This document shows, one piece after another, positions 10,586 through 32,360 of a DNA stretch of 32,364 nt. The DNA is taken from IMG/VR virus record IMGVR_UViG_3300035670_000850, positions 1 through 32,364 of that record. The stretch is one strand, 5' to 3'. The translations under genes were made by a program, and so were the position numbers. Each line of letters opens with the position of its first letter. Positions within the stretch are counted from its first letter, which is position 1. Source of the stretch: a virus. Under the pieces are notes generated by a model. The model was given only the letters and a program-made list of their open reading frames with translations, made no database searches and was not told the origin of the DNA.

Positions 10586-10855
10586 ATGGAAAACCCAAAC
10601 CGTAACAAGCTCATCATGCTCGGAGCCGCAGTAGTTCTACTGTGGGGCTGGGCAATACTCCCACCAGCAGAAGACATCCCAGACCAAGTGAAAACCGAGT
10701 TCGACTGGGTGCTATTCGGCCTGATGAACCTCGTCGCAGTCGTGTTCGCACACATCTGGATCAGCGCACCAGCAAGGGAACAGAAGCGTCGTGAGCAGTA
10801 TCAACTTCGACGCGAGTTGAAGGCTGCGAAGCGTCGCCACCCAACCGCCCGATGA
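10586..10855 (+). CDS. Two-span membrane protein
   Basis: The 89-residue product has two hydrophobic helices (about 9-26, LIMLGAAVVLLWGWAILP, and 41-60, VLFGLMNLVAVVFAHIWIS) and a strongly basic C-terminal tail (REQKRREQYQLRRELKAAKRRH). AAGGAGGGC is well placed before ATG 10586. The topology fits a holin-like or superinfection-exclusion membrane protein. It follows the secreted transglycosylase gene, and the pair could act together on the envelope. No family is recognised. Confidence 0.65.
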   Translation: MENPNRNKLIMLGAAVVLLWGWAILPPAEDIPDQVKTEFDWVLFGLMNLVAVVFAHIWISAPAREQKRREQYQLRRELKAAKRRHPTAR

Positions 10856-11127
10856 ACGTCCACATCGTTGATCTGTGGTCGGAAGGCGATCAGGTATTCA
10901 GACCGAACAAACCCGCATGGCATGACCTCGCGGAATGTCACGGTCGGCATCACTTGTTCTTCTCCGACCGCAGAGACGACATTATCGAAGCCAAACAACT
11001 CTGCCAATACTGCCCAGTACGACAAACCTGCCTCGATTATGCGATAGCAGGTGACGAGCATGGCATTTGGGGTGGTCTGACTACGATGGAACGCCAACGC
11101 TACGTTCAAGCAAGGAGCCACAAATGA
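10852..11127 (+). CDS. whiB: WhiB-family iron-sulfur transcriptional regulator
   Basis: This 91-residue protein has the four cysteines of the Wbl family (Cys29, Cys51, Cys54, Cys60; CQYCPVRQTC) that hold a [4Fe-4S] cluster, followed by the GIWGG turn (residues 71-75) and a basic C-terminus. Wbl proteins bind the primary sigma factor and modulate transcription. Phage copies are known to redirect host expression and in some cases affect septation or superinfection. Start and stop overlap both neighbours by ATGA. This gene is the strongest evidence for an actinobacterial host. Confidence 0.93.
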   Translation: MNVHIVDLWSEGDQVFRPNKPAWHDLAECHGRHHLFFSDRRDDIIEAKQLCQYCPVRQTCLDYAIAGDEHGIWGGLTTMERQRYVQARSHK

Positions 11128-15503: not shown

Positions 15504-15746
15504 ATGAGAAAACGCAACGAACGGTATCTCCCCGTCCAACCCCTACTCAAGCTCTTCCCACCCGGAACAAGCGACGGAATGATCGCCGACACATTCGGCA
15601 TCGCACGAACATCCATCGTCCGATGGCGCAACCAACCAAACATCTGCATCAATGAATACGACGCCGACCGATACGCAATCACCCTCGGCCTACACCCAAT
15701 CGAAATCTGGGACAACTGGCTACAACTCGACGAGATCGCATCATGA
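15504..15746 (+). CDS. HTH DNA-binding protein A of a tandem pair
   Basis: This 80-residue protein has a helix-turn-helix with the segment DTFGIARTSIVRWRN and the C-terminal signature LGLHPIEIWDNW, a combination typical of actinobacterial phage-like HTH regulators. The recognition helix is basic. It is paralogous to the next gene: both share MRK at the start, IVRWRN in the middle and HPxEIWxNW at the end. AAGGAGG is well placed before the ATG. It may act as a repressor or replication-control protein. Confidence 0.78.
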   Translation: MRKRNERYLPVQPLLKLFPPGTSDGMIADTFGIARTSIVRWRNQPNICINEYDADRYAITLGLHPIEIWDNWLQLDEIAS

Positions 15747-15985
15747 GAAAAAACAAGGCATACTGCTTCCCCGCCCGCAACCTGCTGGAGAAGCTCGGCA
15801 TCGATCAAGATTCCAGACTGCTCGCAGAAATCGTCGGCGTAGAACGAGCCACCATCGTCCGATGGCGCAACACAGGCTCCAACTTCACCTGGTTCCAAGC
15901 CGATGAAATCGCAGTACGCCTCGGCTACCACCCGATGGAAATCTGGCCTAACTGGATCGACGAATCATTGAAAGCAGCATCATGA
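15743..15985 (+). CDS. HTH DNA-binding protein B of a tandem pair
   Basis: The 80-residue product is a diverged duplicate of the preceding gene, identical in length and collinear: EIVGVERATIVRWRN in the HTH and LGYHPMEIWPNW near the end. The recognition-helix neighbourhood differs (ERAT versus ARTS), so the two may bind different sites or form a heterodimer. It starts in an ATGA overlap with its partner. Their position just upstream of the replicase suggests control of replication or early transcription. Confidence 0.78.
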   Translation: MRKNKAYCFPARNLLEKLGIDQDSRLLAEIVGVERATIVRWRNTGSNFTWFQADEIAVRLGYHPMEIWPNWIDESLKAAS

Positions 15986-16170
15986 AGTTCAAGCACACCC
16001 AAGCCTCACAAGCAGGAACACAAACCCTGTGGAGCTGCGCCTACTGCGGATCAGTCATCTGCATCCCCAGCGGTCGAGGCAAACCACACGGAAACTGCCC
16101 ATCCTGCGACCGGAACGACTGGTCACAAGTAGAAGCACCGATCGCCATGTTCGACAAGGAAACAGCATGA
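15982..16170 (+). CDS. Zinc-ribbon protein
   Basis: This 62-residue protein has CAYC (about residues 19-22) and CPSC (about 39-42), separated by a basic GRGKPHGN loop, the layout of a four-cysteine zinc ribbon. Such small ribbons bind nucleic acid or act as protein adaptors. It overlaps the HTH gene upstream and the replicase gene downstream, both by four bases. A role with the replicase is inferred from this position only. Confidence 0.7.
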   Translation: MKFKHTQASQAGTQTLWSCAYCGSVICIPSGRGKPHGNCPSCDRNDWSQVEAPIAMFDKETA

Positions 16171-18281
16171 CCAACAGAATGCTCCAAGCCGCGCTCAGCT
16201 ACGCCCAACTCGGCATCCGAGTCATCCCCATCAAACCAGGCATGAAATACCCGCCCATCAACGAATGGCAAAACCAAGCCACCACCAACCCCGACACCAT
16301 CACCGAATGGTGGAACGACACCTACCACGGCTACGGCATCGGCATCGCCACAGGACGCACAACCAACGGCCACATCTTCGTCCTCGACGTCGATGATCGA
16401 GACGAATACAAAGGCTCCGACACCCTCCACGACCTCGAACAAACCTACGGACAACTCCCCGAAACCGTCGAAGCCACCACCGGCACAGGCGGACGCCACC
16501 TCTACTACTACAGCCCCACCGAAATCCGAAACAACGCAGGCACACGCCTCGGCAAAGGACTCGACATCAGAGGCGAAGGAGGCCAAGTCCTCGCCGACCC
16601 AACCCTCCACCCAAACGGCCGACCCTACACCTGGAACATCGGACAATCCCCACACGACCGCAAACCAGCCCACGCCCCTGATTGGTTGATCCAGCTCCTC
16701 ACCAAACAACCCGAACCCATCAAACCACCCACCACACCCGACACCTTCCTCAACGACCCCACAACCCCCTCAGCCCGCTACAACGCCGAAACCACATGGG
16801 AACAACTCCTCATCCCCGACGGCTGGACACTCGTCAAAACAGACCGACACGGCGAACAACACTGGACACGCCCAGGCAAAGACCCACGCGAAGGCACCTC
16901 AGCCACCATCGGACACAACGGCAACGACGCCCTCATCGTCTTCACCAGCGCAATCCCCTGGCTCCCAGAAGGCGGCTACAACCGATTCGGCTACTACGCA
17001 GCCCGACACCACAACGGCGACTGGAAACAAGCCGCCCACACCTACCTCCAAACCCAACCCACCCAACCCAACCAACCCCCAACCCAAACCACCCCAGACG
17101 AACTCCACAACATGCTCATCAACTGGCACGACTTCTGGCAAGGAGAACACACCACAGAAGACTGGATCGCCAAACCCCTCATCGCCCGAGGCAGACAAAC
17201 CGCCCTCTTCGCAGGAGCCAAAACAGGCAAATCCTGGATCACCCTCAACATCACCGCAGCCCTCGCAACCGGCAAACCCATCCTCGGTCAACCCCCCCAA
17301 CCACCAGTCCACACCCTCTACCTCGACTACGAAATGACCCAAGCCGACCTCATGGAACGCCTCGAACAATTCGGCTACACCGAAGACGACGACTACTCCC
17401 ACCTCCACTACGCCCTCATCCCATCCCTCCCCCCACTCAACACCTACGAAGGAGCCACAGCCCTCACCAAACTCTGCGAACTCACCAAAGCCGAAGTCGT
17501 CATCATCGACACCACCGGCAGAGCTATTGAAGGCGAAGAAGACAAAGCCGACTCCTACCGAGCCTTCGCCCGAACCACAGGCCTCGCATTGAAGAAAGCT
17601 GGCATCGCCCTCGTCCGAACCGACCACGCAGGCAAAAAAGTCGGCCAAGGACAACGAGGCTCCTCAGCCAAAAACGACGACGTAGACATCGTCTATCGCC
17701 TCGACAAGACCGACGAAGGCGTCCGGCTCGTCCGAACCCACTCACGCATCAGCTGGTGCCCCGAAAAGGTAGACCTCATCGTCGAAGACTTTGACGACAT
17801 CACCACCATCCGATACAAAGCCCCCAGCAACCGAGGCTTCACCGCCCAAGCCATCGACCTCGCCCGACGCCTCGACCAACTCGGCTACCCCCTCGACCTA
17901 GGGGTGAATGAAACCATCAAACTGGCCAAAGAGCAGGGCATCACCCTCGGACGAAAGACCCTCGTCTCCGAGGCGATCCGATGCCGAAAGCAACCCAAAC
18001 CAGACCCACTTGAGGTGGTTCCCACTTTTGACCCCTCTCACGGGAACCACCTGAAAACGGGAACCACTTGGGAACCACCTCGGGAACCACTTGGGAACCA
18101 CCTCACCAAACCCAGCGCGCATAAGGGAACCACCCCACCCCCCTATAGGGGGGTGGTGGTTCCCATGCCCGACCCTGATGACTTGTCATACAATTCAGAA
18201 ACGGGAACCACCCCCCATAATTCGTTCCAATCGGATCACATCGACCCAACCGACCCCGACCATCTCGACCCCCTCTGGTAG
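16167..18281 (+). CDS. Prim-pol / RecA-like ATPase fusion (replicative primase-helicase)
   Basis: ATG 16167 gives 704 residues. Residues 1-190 match the bifunctional primase/polymerase (AEP) domain: GIRVIPIKPGMKYPP, FVLDVDDRD with metal-binding Asp74 and Asp76, and TTGTGGRHLYYY with His111. From about residue 330 a RepA/DnaB-like RecA-fold ATPase follows, with Walker A GAKTGKS (350-356), Walker B VVIIDTTG (Asp448), RTDHAGKK (484-491) and RGSSAKNDD. It should prime and unwind phage DNA. The last roughly 90 residues are low complexity because their DNA is built of iterons. Codons are extremely C/A-rich with few G bases on this strand. Confidence 0.9.
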   Translation: MTNRMLQAALSYAQLGIRVIPIKPGMKYPPINEWQNQATTNPDTITEWWNDTYHGYGIGIATGRTTNGHIFVLDVDDRDEYKGSDTLHDLEQTYGQLPETVEATTGTGGRHLYYYSPTEIRNNAGTRLGKGLDIRGEGGQVLADPTLHPNGRPYTWNIGQSPHDRKPAHAPDWLIQLLTKQPEPIKPPTTPDTFLNDPTTPSARYNAETTWEQLLIPDGWTLVKTDRHGEQHWTRPGKDPREGTSATIGHNGNDALIVFTSAIPWLPEGGYNRFGYYAARHHNGDWKQAAHTYLQTQPTQPNQPPTQTTPDELHNMLINWHDFWQGEHTTEDWIAKPLIARGRQTALFAGAKTGKSWITLNITAALATGKPILGQPPQPPVHTLYLDYEMTQADLMERLEQFGYTEDDDYSHLHYALIPSLPPLNTYEGATALTKLCELTKAEVVIIDTTGRAIEGEEDKADSYRAFARTTGLALKKAGIALVRTDHAGKKVGQGQRGSSAKNDDVDIVYRLDKTDEGVRLVRTHSRISWCPEKVDLIVEDFDDITTIRYKAPSNRGFTAQAIDLARRLDQLGYPLDLGVNETIKLAKEQGITLGRKTLVSEAIRCRKQPKPDPLEVVPTFDPSHGNHLKTGTTWEPPREPLGNHLTKPSAHKGTTPPPYRGVVVPMPDPDDLSYNSETGTTPHNSFQSDHIDPTDPDHLDPLW
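18014..18212. repeat. Iteron array, nine copies of GGGAACCAC(C/T), candidate replication origin
   Basis: Forward copies of GGGAACCACC or GGGAACCACT start at 18042, 18059, 18070, 18082, 18093, 18125 and 18203. Reverse copies lie at 18014-18023 and 18155-18164. Copies 18059-18081 and 18082-18104 form an exact tandem repeat of a 23-base double unit, so spacing alternates 11 and 12 bases, close to one helix turn. The array lies in the coding 3' end of the replicase gene. Clustered, helically phased iterons beside a replication initiator gene are a standard origin design. Confidence 0.75.
18125..18164. promoter_or_regulatory. Large GC-rich palindrome within the iteron array
   Basis: Two oppositely oriented iterons (18125-18134 and 18155-18164) are joined by C6-TATA-G6. 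The arms are 18125-18143 and 18148-18164, a 17-bp near-perfect stem with a two-base bulge around a TATA loop. The inner 20 bases, CACCCCCCTATAGGGGGGTG (18137-18154 plus flanks), are symmetric. It could extrude as a cruciform, or bind a dimeric initiator, or stop transcription after the replicase gene. Confidence 0.7.
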
Positions 18282-18287
18282 CCCCCC

Positions 18288-18593
18288 ATGCCCATCCACC
18301 GCCCCTGCCTCACCTGCCATCGACTCACCATCAACCCACGACGCTGCGACACCTGCCAAGCCACCTGGCAAGCCCAGCGACCCAAGCCCTACCGACCCCA
18401 CTACCGAGGCAACTACGCAGCCCGAGCCAAGGCGGTGAGGGAGACGGCCACCCAATGCTGGATATGTGGCGAAGGCGCACGAGTGGACGACCCTTGGACA
18501 GCCGATCACGTCCACCCAGGCGACACTTCACCAGACGCCCTACTCCTCCCAGCCCACCGCACCTGCAACTCTCGTCGCGGGAATCGCGCATGA
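18288..18593 (+). CDS. HNH endonuclease next to terminase
   Basis: This 101-residue protein has an N-terminal zinc knuckle pair (CLTC near 7-10, CDTC near 20-23) and an HNH core: CWICGEG, TADHVHPGD (catalytic His region), LLPAHRTCNSRRGNR. Small HNH enzymes encoded beside the terminase in HK97-like cos phages are needed for DNA end processing and head packaging. Its location directly before terS fits that role, so a cos site close by is expected. A homing role is less likely in this position. Confidence 0.85.
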   Translation: MPIHRPCLTCHRLTINPRRCDTCQATWQAQRPKPYRPHYRGNYAARAKAVRETATQCWICGEGARVDDPWTADHVHPGDTSPDALLLPAHRTCNSRRGNRA

Positions 18594-18618
18594 CCCCCCA
18601 CCGGCAGTCTCGGGGGGT
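18593..18618. promoter_or_regulatory. C6/G6 hairpin after HNH gene, candidate cos region
   Basis: ACCCCCC (18593-18599) and GGGGGGT (18612-18618) form a 7-bp stem with a 12-base loop, right at the HNH stop codon. The noncoding stretch from 18594 to 18710 continues with G tracts (GGGG, GGGGG) that could also form a G-quadruplex. Cohesive-end sites of cos phages often lie between the HNH and terS genes, so this is the best candidate region. The cut itself cannot be seen. Confidence 0.4.
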
Positions 18619-18710
18619 GGGGTCGGACTGGGGGCGCGCAGACGCCTATGACCTATGCCGTTGCACGACACGGGCGGGGTTGGTGGACGGGGTACGGCTA
18701 CCCTTGTGGA

Positions 18711-25455: not shown

Positions 25456-26763
25456 GTGAATGCTCGTCATCGTCAACAACACGCCGGTCGAGTTACCCGA
25501 CCTGGAAGCGGAATTGCTGCTGCGTCGGGGCGTAGCGCACTTGCCGGAAGTAGCCGACCAGCCTCTTCCGAATCGTTACGAATCCTCTTCTACTCGAACG
25601 CCCCGTTCGCCCCGACCGGCTACGGCACCCAAACCGCGCAGCTCGTCCCGAGGCTCATCCAAGAAGGGAACGAAGTAGCGATCCACGCCATGTATGGCAT
25701 CGAGGCGGTGCCGTCAATGTGGAACGGGATCAAGATGTATCCGCGTGGGATGGCACCATATTCGGATGATGTGGTGACAGCGCATTGGATGGACTGGTCG
25801 AACGGCAACAAGAACCTGCCACCGATGCTGATGACCTTGTTCGATGTGTGGGTATTGAAGTCGGCGTCACTTGACATCATCCCGAACATCGCATCGTGGG
25901 TGCCTATCGATCATGCTCCTTGTCCGCCTGAGGTGGTGGCGTTCTGTCAGCGTAAGAACGTGAAACCGATTGCGATGTCCCAGTTTGGGAAACGAATGTT
26001 GGAGGCTCAGGATGTTGAGTGTTTGTATGCGCCTCACGGCATTGAGGATGTGTTCAAGCCGACGGCCAAGTGGAGCAACGGTCAACAGGAGTTGACTGGT
26101 CGACAGATCATGGGTATCCCTGACGACAAGTTCGTGGTGATGATGAACTCTGCCAACAAGGGTGTGAACCCGTCACGCAAGTCATTCGCTGAGAACATTC
26201 TGGCGTTCGCCATCTTCGCCCAAACCCGACCCGATGCGATCCTCTATCTGCACACCGAGTCGATGGGTTCGATGGGTGGAATCAACCTGATGCACCTGTT
26301 GGACGCTTGCGGGTTGAAGCCTGAGCAATACAAGATCATCGACCAGTACGCCTATCGGATGAGTGTCCCGCAGGGTGCGCTGGCTGCCATCTATTCGGCT
26401 GCTGACGTGTTGTTGGCTTGCTCGATGGGTGAGGGGTTTGGGATTCCTGTGGTTGAGGCTCAGGCGTGTGGGACTCGGGTGATCGTGTCGGATTACACCG
26501 CCCAGCCGGAGTTGGTTGGGTCGGGTTGGAAGGTGGAGACGCAACCGTTCTGGGATGCGGCACAGAAAGCCTGGTTCTGCACCCCACAGGTACCATCCAT
26601 CGTGGATGCCCTGAGAGCCTCCTACGAGGCTCCTAGAGGGGCGGATAAGGCCGCTGTGGAGTTTGCTAGCCAATACTCCGCAGATCGCGTCTATGAGGCT
26701 CATTGGAAGCCAATCATGAAGGAGTTGTCGGCATGGTGCCGGTCATCGTCATCCCAGTCCTGA
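25456..26763 (+). CDS. Glycosyltransferase, GT4-like (GT-B fold)
   Basis: Reading from GTG 25456 gives 435 residues. The glycosyltransferase domain begins at about residue 42 (LRILFYSNAPFAPTGYGTQTAQL). The donor-binding end has SMGEGFGIPVVEAQACGTRVIVSD with the E-x7-E motif (Glu326, Glu334) and a following E(L)VGSGW. Such enzymes transfer a sugar from a nucleotide donor. Residues 1-41 are low-complexity Arg/Ala/Ser/Gly, and the same DNA codes a better-looking protein in another frame, so the real N-terminus is in doubt. It heads a cassette with two more glycosyltransferase-like genes and a methyltransferase. Confidence 0.85.
   Translation: MNARHRQQHAGRVTRPGSGIAAASGRSALAGSSRPASSESLRILFYSNAPFAPTGYGTQTAQLVPRLIQEGNEVAIHAMYGIEAVPSMWNGIKMYPRGMAPYSDDVVTAHWMDWSNGNKNLPPMLMTLFDVWVLKSASLDIIPNIASWVPIDHAPCPPEVVAFCQRKNVKPIAMSQFGKRMLEAQDVECLYAPHGIEDVFKPTAKWSNGQQELTGRQIMGIPDDKFVVMMNSANKGVNPSRKSFAENILAFAIFAQTRPDAILYLHTESMGSMGGINLMHLLDACGLKPEQYKIIDQYAYRMSVPQGALAAIYSAADVLLACSMGEGFGIPVVEAQACGTRVIVSDYTAQPELVGSGWKVETQPFWDAAQKAWFCTPQVPSIVDALRASYEAPRGADKAAVEFASQYSADRVYEAHWKPIMKELSAWCRSSSSQS
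25460..25678 (+). CDS. Small ORF overprinting the glycosyltransferase start
   Basis: ATG 25460 has AAGGAG nine bases upstream. The first 34 residues (MLVIVNNTPVELPDLEAELL, then LRRGVAHLPEV) look like a genuine small phage protein of the kind found after capsid genes. The rest (SSSTRTPRSPRPATAPKPRSSS) looks like a shadow of the glycosyltransferase frame. It may be a real short gene, or the original N-terminus of the enzyme joined to it by a -1 shift. No classic slippery heptamer is evident at the transition near 25560-25600. Confidence 0.55.
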   Translation: MLVIVNNTPVELPDLEAELLLRRGVAHLPEVADQPLPNRYESSSTRTPRSPRPATAPKPRSSSRGSSKKGTK

Positions 26764-27401
26764 ACCGATACGACCTCCTCGAACGATGCCTAGCCTCTAT
26801 TGACTACCCCGTAGACACGCTCATCATCATTGACAACGGTGGACAGGCAAGCCTGTGGGGTTGCCCTTGGCTGGTCGATCATCGCCAAATCGACGACTAC
26901 CGAATCTGGTCAATGCCCAGCAACCTCGGTGTCGCAACCTCATGGAACCTCAGCATCAAGGCAACGCCCTACAGCAAGGACGGTTGGCTGCTGCTGAACT
27001 CCGATGCTTGGTTCGAGCCTGGTGCATTACAGCAGTTTCACGGTGAATGTAGCCCAGACACGATCACGCTTGCCGGTCATCCAGGCTGGGCTTGCGCTCA
27101 TGTTGGACGCAACGTAGTCGGCAAGATTGGCCTGTTCTGCGAGAACTTCCATCCCGCCTACTTTGAGGACAACGACTTCGAGCGTCGAGCGCAAGCACAC
27201 GGAATCCCAATCGTTCACTCGTCAGCGAAAGTAAATCACGACAACTCCTCGACCATCGCTTCTGACCCGTCTCTAGCTGAAGCGAACACGAAGTCCTTTC
27301 AGGCGAATCAAATGCTGTATGAGAAGCGTTGGGCGAACGGTGTTCCTGCTCATGAGGAGTGGGATTTGGATAGAAGGGTGGAGTTAGGTTGGGACAGATA
27401 G
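26733..27401 (+). CDS. Glycosyltransferase, GT2-like (GT-A fold)
   Basis: AAGGAG eight bases before ATG 26733 sets the start. The 222-residue product has the GT2 beginning VIVIPVLNRYDLLERCLASI, IIIDNGG, NLGVATSWNLSIK and LLLNSDAWFEPGAL, where Asp91 is the likely metal ligand of a shortened DxD motif. A later ENFHPAYFEDNDFERRA segment carries the usual acidic (E/D)D acceptor-site residues. It should add a sugar to an acceptor, probably together with the adjacent GT4 enzyme. It overlaps that gene by 31 bases. Confidence 0.85.
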   Translation: MVPVIVIPVLNRYDLLERCLASIDYPVDTLIIIDNGGQASLWGCPWLVDHRQIDDYRIWSMPSNLGVATSWNLSIKATPYSKDGWLLLNSDAWFEPGALQQFHGECSPDTITLAGHPGWACAHVGRNVVGKIGLFCENFHPAYFEDNDFERRAQAHGIPIVHSSAKVNHDNSSTIASDPSLAEANTKSFQANQMLYEKRWANGVPAHEEWDLDRRVELGWDR

Positions 27402-27910
27402 TTGTTGTTGCTACGACGCCTGGGCGTGAGCATTGGTTGTCTGATTGCTTGAAGTCGTTGGGTGATCGTGAGGTTCTGGTGTTGCGTCAGGCGGGGACGT
27501 GGGAGTTGGGGAAGATTCAATGGCTGTATGAGAACACCGCGCTCGACAGGTTTCTGTTCCTGCACGACACGGTGGTTGTGAAGGACGGGTCGTTCATCGA
27601 TGAGGCGTTCAGTCATCCTGGGTCGGTGGCGTTGACGAATGACCCTGGCTGGTTCGGGATGTTCATGGGTATCTATACACGGGAAACCCTCAGCAAGGTT
27701 CACCTATTTTCGCCGGTGACGCAGAGGGATTCGATTCGCGCTGAGGTGGAATGGACTCGGACTTATCATGAGGCCGAGCCGACGGCACATCTGTTGTTCA
27801 ACGATTTCACGGATCGGCATGCTCGGGGTCGCAAAGAGGAACGCTATGGTCGAATCAACCTCGTACTGGAGAACGATTATCTCATCAAATACAAGGGAAC
27901 CTGGTCTTGA
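27389..27910 (+). CDS. Glycosyltransferase-like protein (GT-A type)
   Basis: TTG 27389, preceded by GGTGGAGTTAGG, gives 173 residues. It starts with a strand (GQIVVVATTPGREHWLSDCLKSL) and has a FLFLHDTVVVKDGSFIDEAF segment with an HD pair in the place of the DxD of GT-A enzymes, then NDPGWFGMFMGIYTRE. It is shorter than typical GT2 proteins. It lies between the GT2 and methyltransferase genes, overlapping both, so it most likely belongs to the same sugar pathway. Assignment to a defined family is not secure. Confidence 0.65.
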   Translation: MGQIVVVATTPGREHWLSDCLKSLGDREVLVLRQAGTWELGKIQWLYENTALDRFLFLHDTVVVKDGSFIDEAFSHPGSVALTNDPGWFGMFMGIYTRETLSKVHLFSPVTQRDSIRAEVEWTRTYHEAEPTAHLLFNDFTDRHARGRKEERYGRINLVLENDYLIKYKGTWS

Positions 27911-28596
27911 TTCTTGACGAGTTACGCCAGTTCGCGTTGGGGCAGGATTGCTACGCCGACGCTGGTGAACCCGACGACAGGTATGAACATACACATATCA
28001 CCGATCAAGTCATTGACGAGGTGCTGGGTAGGGTGAAGCCGAGGTTCTGGTTGGAGCTTGGCACGATGTTGGGTGGGTCGGCGATCAAGGTGGCTCGACG
28101 TATTGAGGCACAGGGGTTGGATTGTGCGGTGGTGTGTGTCGATCCGTTTTGTGGTGATGTGAATATGCATCATTGGGAGTTGGAGTTGGCTAAGTCTGGG
28201 GGTTGGCGGTTCTTGCAGTTGCGGAATGGTAGGCCGACCATCTTTGAGCGGTTCGCGGCGAATGTGGTGGCGGCTGGGTTGACGCATCGGATTCATCCAA
28301 TTCACGCGACTTCCATTGTGGGGATGCGGTTTCTGGAGCGGATTCATCAGATCGGCTATTTGAGTGGGTTGCCGGATGTGGTGTATTTGGATTCGGCTCA
28401 TGAGGTTGGGGAGACGTTGTTGGAGTTGCGGATGGCGTGGTCGATTCTGTCGGCGGGTGGGGTGTTGATGGGGGATGATTGGGATTGGGTGGCGGTGCGT
28501 CGGGATGTGCAGGTGTTCACCGATGAGGTGGGTGTGGATGTTGAGTTGCGTGAGAACAACCAATGGATTCTCAGCAAACCGCGTGGGATAGCATAG
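27907..28596 (+). CDS. Class I SAM-dependent methyltransferase
   Basis: TTG 27907 overlaps the preceding stop. The 229-residue product has the SAM-binding glycine motif FWLELGTMLGGSAIKVA (residues 48-63), CVDPFCGD (acidic residue after strand 2), DVVYLDSAHEVGETLLELRMAW, and GGVLMGDDW near residue 180. This order fits Methyltransf_24 or cephalosporin-hydroxylase-like enzymes that often O-methylate sugars. With the upstream glycosyltransferases it could cap or modify a glycan on the virion. The codons are the most G/T-rich in the window. Confidence 0.8.
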   Translation: MILDELRQFALGQDCYADAGEPDDRYEHTHITDQVIDEVLGRVKPRFWLELGTMLGGSAIKVARRIEAQGLDCAVVCVDPFCGDVNMHHWELELAKSGGWRFLQLRNGRPTIFERFAANVVAAGLTHRIHPIHATSIVGMRFLERIHQIGYLSGLPDVVYLDSAHEVGETLLELRMAWSILSAGGVLMGDDWDWVAVRRDVQVFTDEVGVDVELRENNQWILSKPRGIA

Positions 28597-31650: not shown

Positions 31651-31670
31651 GGGGGTGAGGAGGGGTGGGT

Positions 31671-32360
31671 ATGGCGGTTTGGTTTAGTTCGGTGAAGGCG
31701 GTTCAGCCCCAGCCGTTGGCGTCGTCCTGGTCGCAGCTCAAAGAGTTGCTCATGTTCCATGAGGAGAATGAGGTGAAGTCGGCTGGGGCGTTGTGGTCGC
31801 CTGTCACCTATTACGAGAATACGACTCGCGGGAACAGGAATGTTCGGTTTGTGGAGTCGCTGGTGGTGGACTTGGATGGTTCGTCGTTTGAGTCGGCTCG
31901 GTTGGATGGGTTGGAGTGGTTTGCGTATTCGACGTATTCGCATCGGTTGGATGATCCGCACTATCACCTGGTGTTGCCGTTGGCTGAGCGTGTGCCTGCT
32001 GGGTTGTGGCGGGCGGTGTGGTTGGAGATGGTTGAGCGTCTCAATCTTCCTGCCGACCCACAGACGAAAGACCCTGCCCGACTGTTCTATCTCCCTCAAC
32101 ACGCACCGGATGCACCGTTTGAGTTTCATGAGGGTTCGGGTGTTCTGCTTGATACGTCGTTTGATTGGGATGATGTTCATTCGTCTCGACCTGTGGTGCG
32201 TCAGGCTAGGAATCCTCGGAAGGTTCGGGCTGGTGCGGAGATGTTGTCGGAGGGTTGGTGGGCTTCTGCTGATGTGTCGTGTTGGGCTGGGTTGGAGGGC
32301 AAGGAGTTGTATCGGGTGATGCTTGCTGAGTGGGAAAGCCTGTATTCGCAGTTGAAGTAG
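31671..32360 (+). CDS. AEP-primase-like protein in the tail operon
   Basis: ATG 31671, preceded by AGGAGGGG, gives 229 residues (GTG 31665 is an alternative). The sequence follows the catalytic core of archaeo-eukaryotic primases: WSPVTYYEN, FVESLVVDLDG with an Asp67-x-Asp69 metal pair, FAYSTYSHRLDDPHYHLVLPL with candidate His91, His97 and His99, and KDPARLFYLPQHAPD with Arg. A helical C-terminus of about 60 residues follows. No helicase domain is attached. It lies immediately before the tape measure gene and apart from the other replication genes, so either it serves replication from an odd place or it has a tail-linked or early-infection role. Confidence 0.7.
   Translation: MAVWFSSVKAVQPQPLASSWSQLKELLMFHEENEVKSAGALWSPVTYYENTTRGNRNVRFVESLVVDLDGSSFESARLDGLEWFAYSTYSHRLDDPHYHLVLPLAERVPAGLWRAVWLEMVERLNLPADPQTKDPARLFYLPQHAPDAPFEFHEGSGVLLDTSFDWDDVHSSRPVVRQARNPRKVRAGAEMLSEGWWASADVSCWAGLEGKELYRVMLAEWESLYSQLK

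Follow-up and report, generated by a model that had tools for sequence, protein, structure and literature searches.

The initiator O of phage lambda, which is neither a helicase nor a primase, has its iterons inside its own gene. In gene O of lambda and Stx phages, additional iterons lengthen the encoded protein (PMC7466680). In SaPI elements, as far as the work of Ubeda 2007 is recounted in PMC7581432, the initiator helicase uses its C-terminal domain to recognize short iterons that immediately follow its gene. ORF904 of pRN1 combines a PrimPol, a helicase, and a C-terminal DNA-binding domain, and a stem-loop lies just 3' of its gene; the stem sequence of such stem-loops is not conserved between relatives (PMC4234260). 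In RSF1010, RepC, RepA, and RepB' act with oriV and ssiA/ssiB in iteron reading, helicase function, and priming at stem-loops, and the alpha protein of phage P4 is at once a primase, a helicase, and a winged-helix binder of origin repeats (PMC4234260).

The window analyzed here is a 32,364-nucleotide stretch of viral DNA (IMG/VR record IMGVR_UViG_3300035670_000850), in which a repeat array combines traits of lambda-type intragenic, SaPI Rep-type, and pRN1-type origins. The parts are known, and their combination was not found within the literature searched. As in lambda and the Stx phages, the iterons lie inside the initiator's own gene in the window and in many relatives, while in other relatives they lie outside it. 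The lambda origin is located mid-gene beside an AT-rich region, whereas the window array is located at the 3' end, around a hairpin, and in relatives can lie outside the coding region. The SaPI Rep/ori and SCCmec Cch2 origins also pair an initiator helicase with iterons next to its gene, and the SCCmec origin has inverted repeats too. However, the SCCmec primase is a separate protein, whereas the PrimPol, the helicase, and the putative origin reader form one chain here; a RecA-like helicase and an array that mostly overlaps the gene set the window apart from both systems. The pRN1 ORF904 origin (and phage BIP-1) shares the domain order and a stem-loop with an unconserved stem, but the pRN1 helicase is of the SF3 type and iterons are absent there, whereas in the window the ATPase is AAA_25/RecA-like and iterons surround a shorter hairpin. 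RSF1010 uses three separate proteins instead of one, and its likeness was drawn via RepA (1nlf), with RepC outside the comparison. P4 alpha, which has a TOPRIM primase rather than a PrimPol, was likened by description and not by sequence.

The initiator gene (16167-18281, plus strand) encodes 704 aa. Its Prim-Pol domain (residues 9-173) matched the whole Pfam profile (PF09250, E 6.7e-43, positions 1-158 of 158), and the AAA_25/RecA-like ATPase (residues 322-491) matched PF13481 with E 9.2e-21. In an AlphaFold model the ATPase part resembled RSF1010 RepA (1nlf, TMt 0.66), which supports a RecA-like fold close to that protein, and ORF904 of pRN1 was the only PrimPol structure matched by the PrimPol part. 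Structure models place three helices at residues 560-571, 580-589, and 597-607 (17844-17987, plus strand); these form the putative iteron-binding domain. Fold searches with this C-terminal domain returned no confident match, only weak helical ones, the best with Z 4.6 to a ribosomal protein. The remaining residues 612-704 (18000-18278, plus strand), with pLDDT <50 for 612-644 and 648-704, form a predicted disordered tail whose coding DNA overlaps the array. A plasmid collection searched with the ATPase and C-terminal part contained no relative. Upstream of the initiator, two adjoining and mutually similar 80-aa HTH-like genes were observed (15504-15985), and 124 of 219 loci contained a homologue.

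The pattern GGGAACCACY matched exactly at nine sites in the window, all within 18014-18212, with no copy elsewhere in the window, and a backwards control pattern gave 0 matches. Seven sites are on the plus strand and two on the minus strand, as the sequence-only reading had counted for about 200 bases, and the array overlaps the C-terminal coding part of the prim-pol/ATPase gene, as it had also stated. The sequence GGGAACCACC occurs on the plus strand at 18042-18051, 18070-18079, 18093-18102, 18125-18134, and 18203-18212 and on the minus strand at 18014-18023 and 18155-18164; GGGAACCACT occurs on the plus strand at 18059-18068 and 18082-18091. The tightest spacing was 11, 12, and 11 bp, in agreement with the helix-turn spacing proposed for the densest part. 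When every codon was resampled from the initiator gene's own synonymous usage, leaving the protein unchanged, the 9-mer GGGAACCAC occurred 0.49 times on average and at most 4 times in 2000 redraws, compared to nine observed copies. Short direct repeats are clustered here beyond chance, as in iteron-type origins. Because the copies sit in all three reading frames, the peptides that they encode differ (GNHL, TGTT, WEPP/REPL, and VVP).

Two opposed iterons, at 18125-18134 and 18155-18164, form the left and right outer arms of a 40-nt hairpin (18125-18164) with the inner stem CACCCCCC-TATA-GGGGGGTG. A 17-bp near-perfect palindrome with opposed iterons as its ends had been described at this place; the opposed iterons were confirmed, but the structure is actually a hairpin with two 17-nt arms (18125-18141 and 18148-18164) that are 88% complementary and have 6 nt between them. 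DNA folding gave z = -5.4 for this hairpin in a sample of eight segments, of which two (L179 and L203) were placed off their own hairpins and were disregarded. A hairpin score of at least 8 was reached by 81% of the arrays of 104 relatives compared to 3.9% of shuffled segments, and 30 distinct inner stems were present among these relatives. This comparison indicates that the hairpin structure is kept in relatives while the stem sequence is rewritten. The box AAACCCAGCGCGCATAAGG (18108-18126, plus strand) comes after the last direct iteron and before the hairpin. Boxes like AAACCCA...AAGG, a pattern drawn up after the data had been seen, were found in 30 of 84 arrays against 2.4 expected by shuffling; they were common to several iteron classes and did not follow the iteron class.

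Scans of IMG/VR and bacterial genomes yielded about 160 unique relatives of the initiator. In nearly all relatives with an intact 3' region, an array comes after the part encoding the last helix, and the layout was kept in more than 100 relatives while the repeat word changed by lineage. At least 15 distinct words each exceeded all 100 shuffles. The relatives' words include GGGAACCAC, CGGAACCAC, GGGTACCAC, GAACCGCC, GGGGACAC, ACGGCGTGA, AACAAGCA, CTGACGCAC, CCGCGACG, GGCGCGGT, GGGGCGCG, and CGGCACGC, among others. The spacing 10-18-12-11-(32)-hairpin was common to the GGGAACC and CGGAACC classes. In L199-L226, in L152, and in the L161-L183 group, the stop codon precedes the array, which is non-coding and located just downstream. 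Only weak arrays were present in L056 and L020, and none was found at the gene end in L154 and L155. In the cultured Streptomyces phage mu1/6, the 3' end of the helicase gene gp21 carries eight copies of ACCTGCCC and a hairpin (L310:3900-4320), which the phage record does not annotate; the terminase lies 4.6 kb further on. The gp21 protein, annotated only as DNA helicase, has a DnaB-like N-terminus, compared to the PrimPol here.

We propose, with a probability of roughly 0.8, that the array is the iteron-plus-hairpin replication origin of an actinobacterial cos phage and is read by the C-terminus of its cognate initiator. The origin suggested by the sequence-only reading is well supported by the comparison, namely by the conserved place, the lineage-specific words, the conserved spacing, and the hairpin with its rewritten stem. 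Further support came from DnaA boxes beside the arrays of some lineages and from the co-variation of the word with the initiator C-terminal domain. All 13 exact TTATCCACA DnaA boxes in 1.04 Mb of relatives' DNA were located in the array zone, which makes up 11% of that DNA; three were in L026, and others were in L065, in L273, and, at one homologous position, in the L270 group. An exact DnaA box is absent from the window itself, and the DNA by its array is nowhere strongly AT-rich, reaching at best 54% AT (18175-18224). An Rfam scan of the window gave no match. A WhiB-like gene (10852-11127, PHROG 472) and the occurrence of relatives in actinobacterial contigs point to an actinobacterial host.

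Iteron-word distance correlated best with distance in initiator residues 557-611 (0.547), followed by AAA (0.487), PrimPol (0.435), HNH (0.328), and TerS (0.321). The partial Mantel value was 0.625 for HTH given TerS and 0.147 for TerS given HTH. The word tracks the initiator C-terminal domain better than the terminase, although linkage would account for part of the correlation, as no coding DNA lies closer to the array than that domain. We do not propose a single-residue code, with H in the CGGAACC class and R in the GGGAACC class, since a single ancestral change may underlie the pattern and H occurs with another word in L158/L160.

In window coordinates, relatives' contigs stop at the position matching 18652 or begin at 18663, and the 10 nt in between, CTATGCCGTT, are missing. 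We infer that 18653-18662, which lies between the HNH gene and the small-terminase gene, is a cos site; its overhangs are probably 3', because the ten bases are absent at both contig ends. A GC-rich hairpin, TGACCCCCCACCGGCAGTCTCGGGGGGTGGGGT (18592-18624), was observed right after the HNH gene, and almost all contigs of relatives carry it at their right end; it is a candidate terminator or packaging element.

A flip in strand composition had been taken as a further sign of an origin. The window was read as a 32,319-bp circle on account of a 45-bp exact terminal repeat, and cumulative GC skew on this circle had its minimum at 18602 and its maximum at 2145, half a circle apart. The flip is thus real and near the array, but its minimum is 390 bp past the array and 50 bp from the cos site, and it fits the HNH/terminase boundary and the cohesive end better. 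The minimum was located 321-668 bp after the gene in 8 of 11 genomes; G013, G014, and G016 had it at another place or below significance, and the detrended minimum of mu1/6 fell at the terminase and not at the array. GC skew was therefore rejected as proof of an origin and counts as weak support.

Because the cohesive end is only 440 bp downstream, the array might instead be a cosB/pac-like site recognized by the terminase for packaging. The cos position derived from contig ends and the HNH and TerS genes directly after it would agree with such a site. However, the array stays with the initiator in relatives whose HNH/TerS genes are 0.6-4.6 kb off or not found nearby (L063, L064, L270, L152, L153, and mu1/6), so that co-location with the terminase gene and cos, as for a cosB/pac site, was not observed. 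Furthermore, cos separates the array, located at the right end, from TerS, and the word distance follows the initiator C-terminus rather than TerS. We consider a packaging site improbable.

Plasmid iterons often serve as operators too, and it is conceivable, if quite unlikely, that binding of the array by the initiator, or by an HTH protein encoded upstream, controls transcription without any origin function. Small HTH-like genes are located upstream, and one weak promoter-like match was found at 18194-18221. However, the array is located at the 3' end of the gene, the region contained two promoter-like matches compared to 0.7 expected, which is little, and the hairpin and the DnaA boxes suit an origin better. 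A promoter/terminator scan showed nothing notable at the array. The additional proposal of an autoregulatory site was unsupported, as about 1.85 kb separates the gene start from the array, at which no promoter was shown.

A centromere-like partition site of a phage-plasmid would also be compatible with direct repeats, of which parS sites can consist. We regard this as very unlikely, since no ParA/ParB-like family was found among the window proteins scanned against PHROGs and Pfam, a scan that left some small ORFs outside.

The reading of the array as an origin is further addressed by what is conserved in the tail. Between the window and its close relatives L010, L012, and L014, the iteron bases were 95-98% identical and the inner hairpin 100% identical, compared to 52-71% for the other bases of the tail and 86-96% for the core gene before the tail. 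In L013, one 23-bp unit was lost and the reading frame with it, and nine sites were still kept. Because the iterons are conserved above the intervening bases and the array is non-coding in some lineages, selection acts on the DNA rather than on the encoded peptide. The overlap with the initiator gene is incidental, because the array lies past the stop codon in several lineages and the tail is predicted to be disordered. Whether the iterons persist in relatives while the protein tail varies had been put forward as a check, with conservation of the peptide but not of the DNA repeats as the contrary outcome; the alignment gave the opposite, with DNA repeats kept and peptide lost, in favor of the origin. 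That the array is a low-complexity coding repeat made by slippage, with no role at the DNA level, is extremely unlikely: it does lie in a disordered tail and units are gained or lost, as in L013, but three frames are used, iteron bases and not the peptide are conserved, the word is replaced together at spaced sites, and the array persists outside coding DNA.

A working order for such an origin, modeled on P4 alpha, SaPI Rep, RSF1010, and pRN1 (PMC4234260, PMC7581432), can be outlined from the anatomy and conservation shown here. The C-terminal three-helix domain of the initiator would bind the iterons, and the RecA-like helicase would assemble on the array. DNA would then open at the hairpin that the two opposed iterons flank, or next to it, and there the PrimPol domain would make the first primers; host DnaA may assist in lineages with DnaA boxes. 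In the window the reading frame continues through the proposed origin, whereas in sister lineages it ends before it. More tentatively, and with the odds somewhat against it, a single polypeptide might read the iterons, load itself as helicase, and prime in the extruded hairpin with no host DnaG or helicase loader, and lineages might switch specificity by replacing all iterons and the C-terminal domain together.

To our knowledge, the origins of uncultivated actinobacterial phages have hardly been mapped. No description of these arrays was found in the open-access literature, a coverage outside which most subscription papers fall. The arrays offer a rule for finding origins, in which iterons and a hairpin follow the last helix of a PrimPol/RecA-like initiator, and a natural library of at least 15 matched initiator/iteron pairs. 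Therefore, the specificity code of the initiator, and its change while all iterons change too, become directly testable, and the cultured phage mu1/6 is a laboratory entry point.

Two other regions of the window were also recorded. An ORF at 31665-32360, beside the tape-measure gene, resembles phage primase families in their N-terminal part (PHROG 9765, E 2e-18) and had no Pfam match. Two glycosyltransferase genes (PHROG 2170 and 29879) and two unassigned ORFs occupy 25456-28596, between the major capsid and head-tail connector genes.
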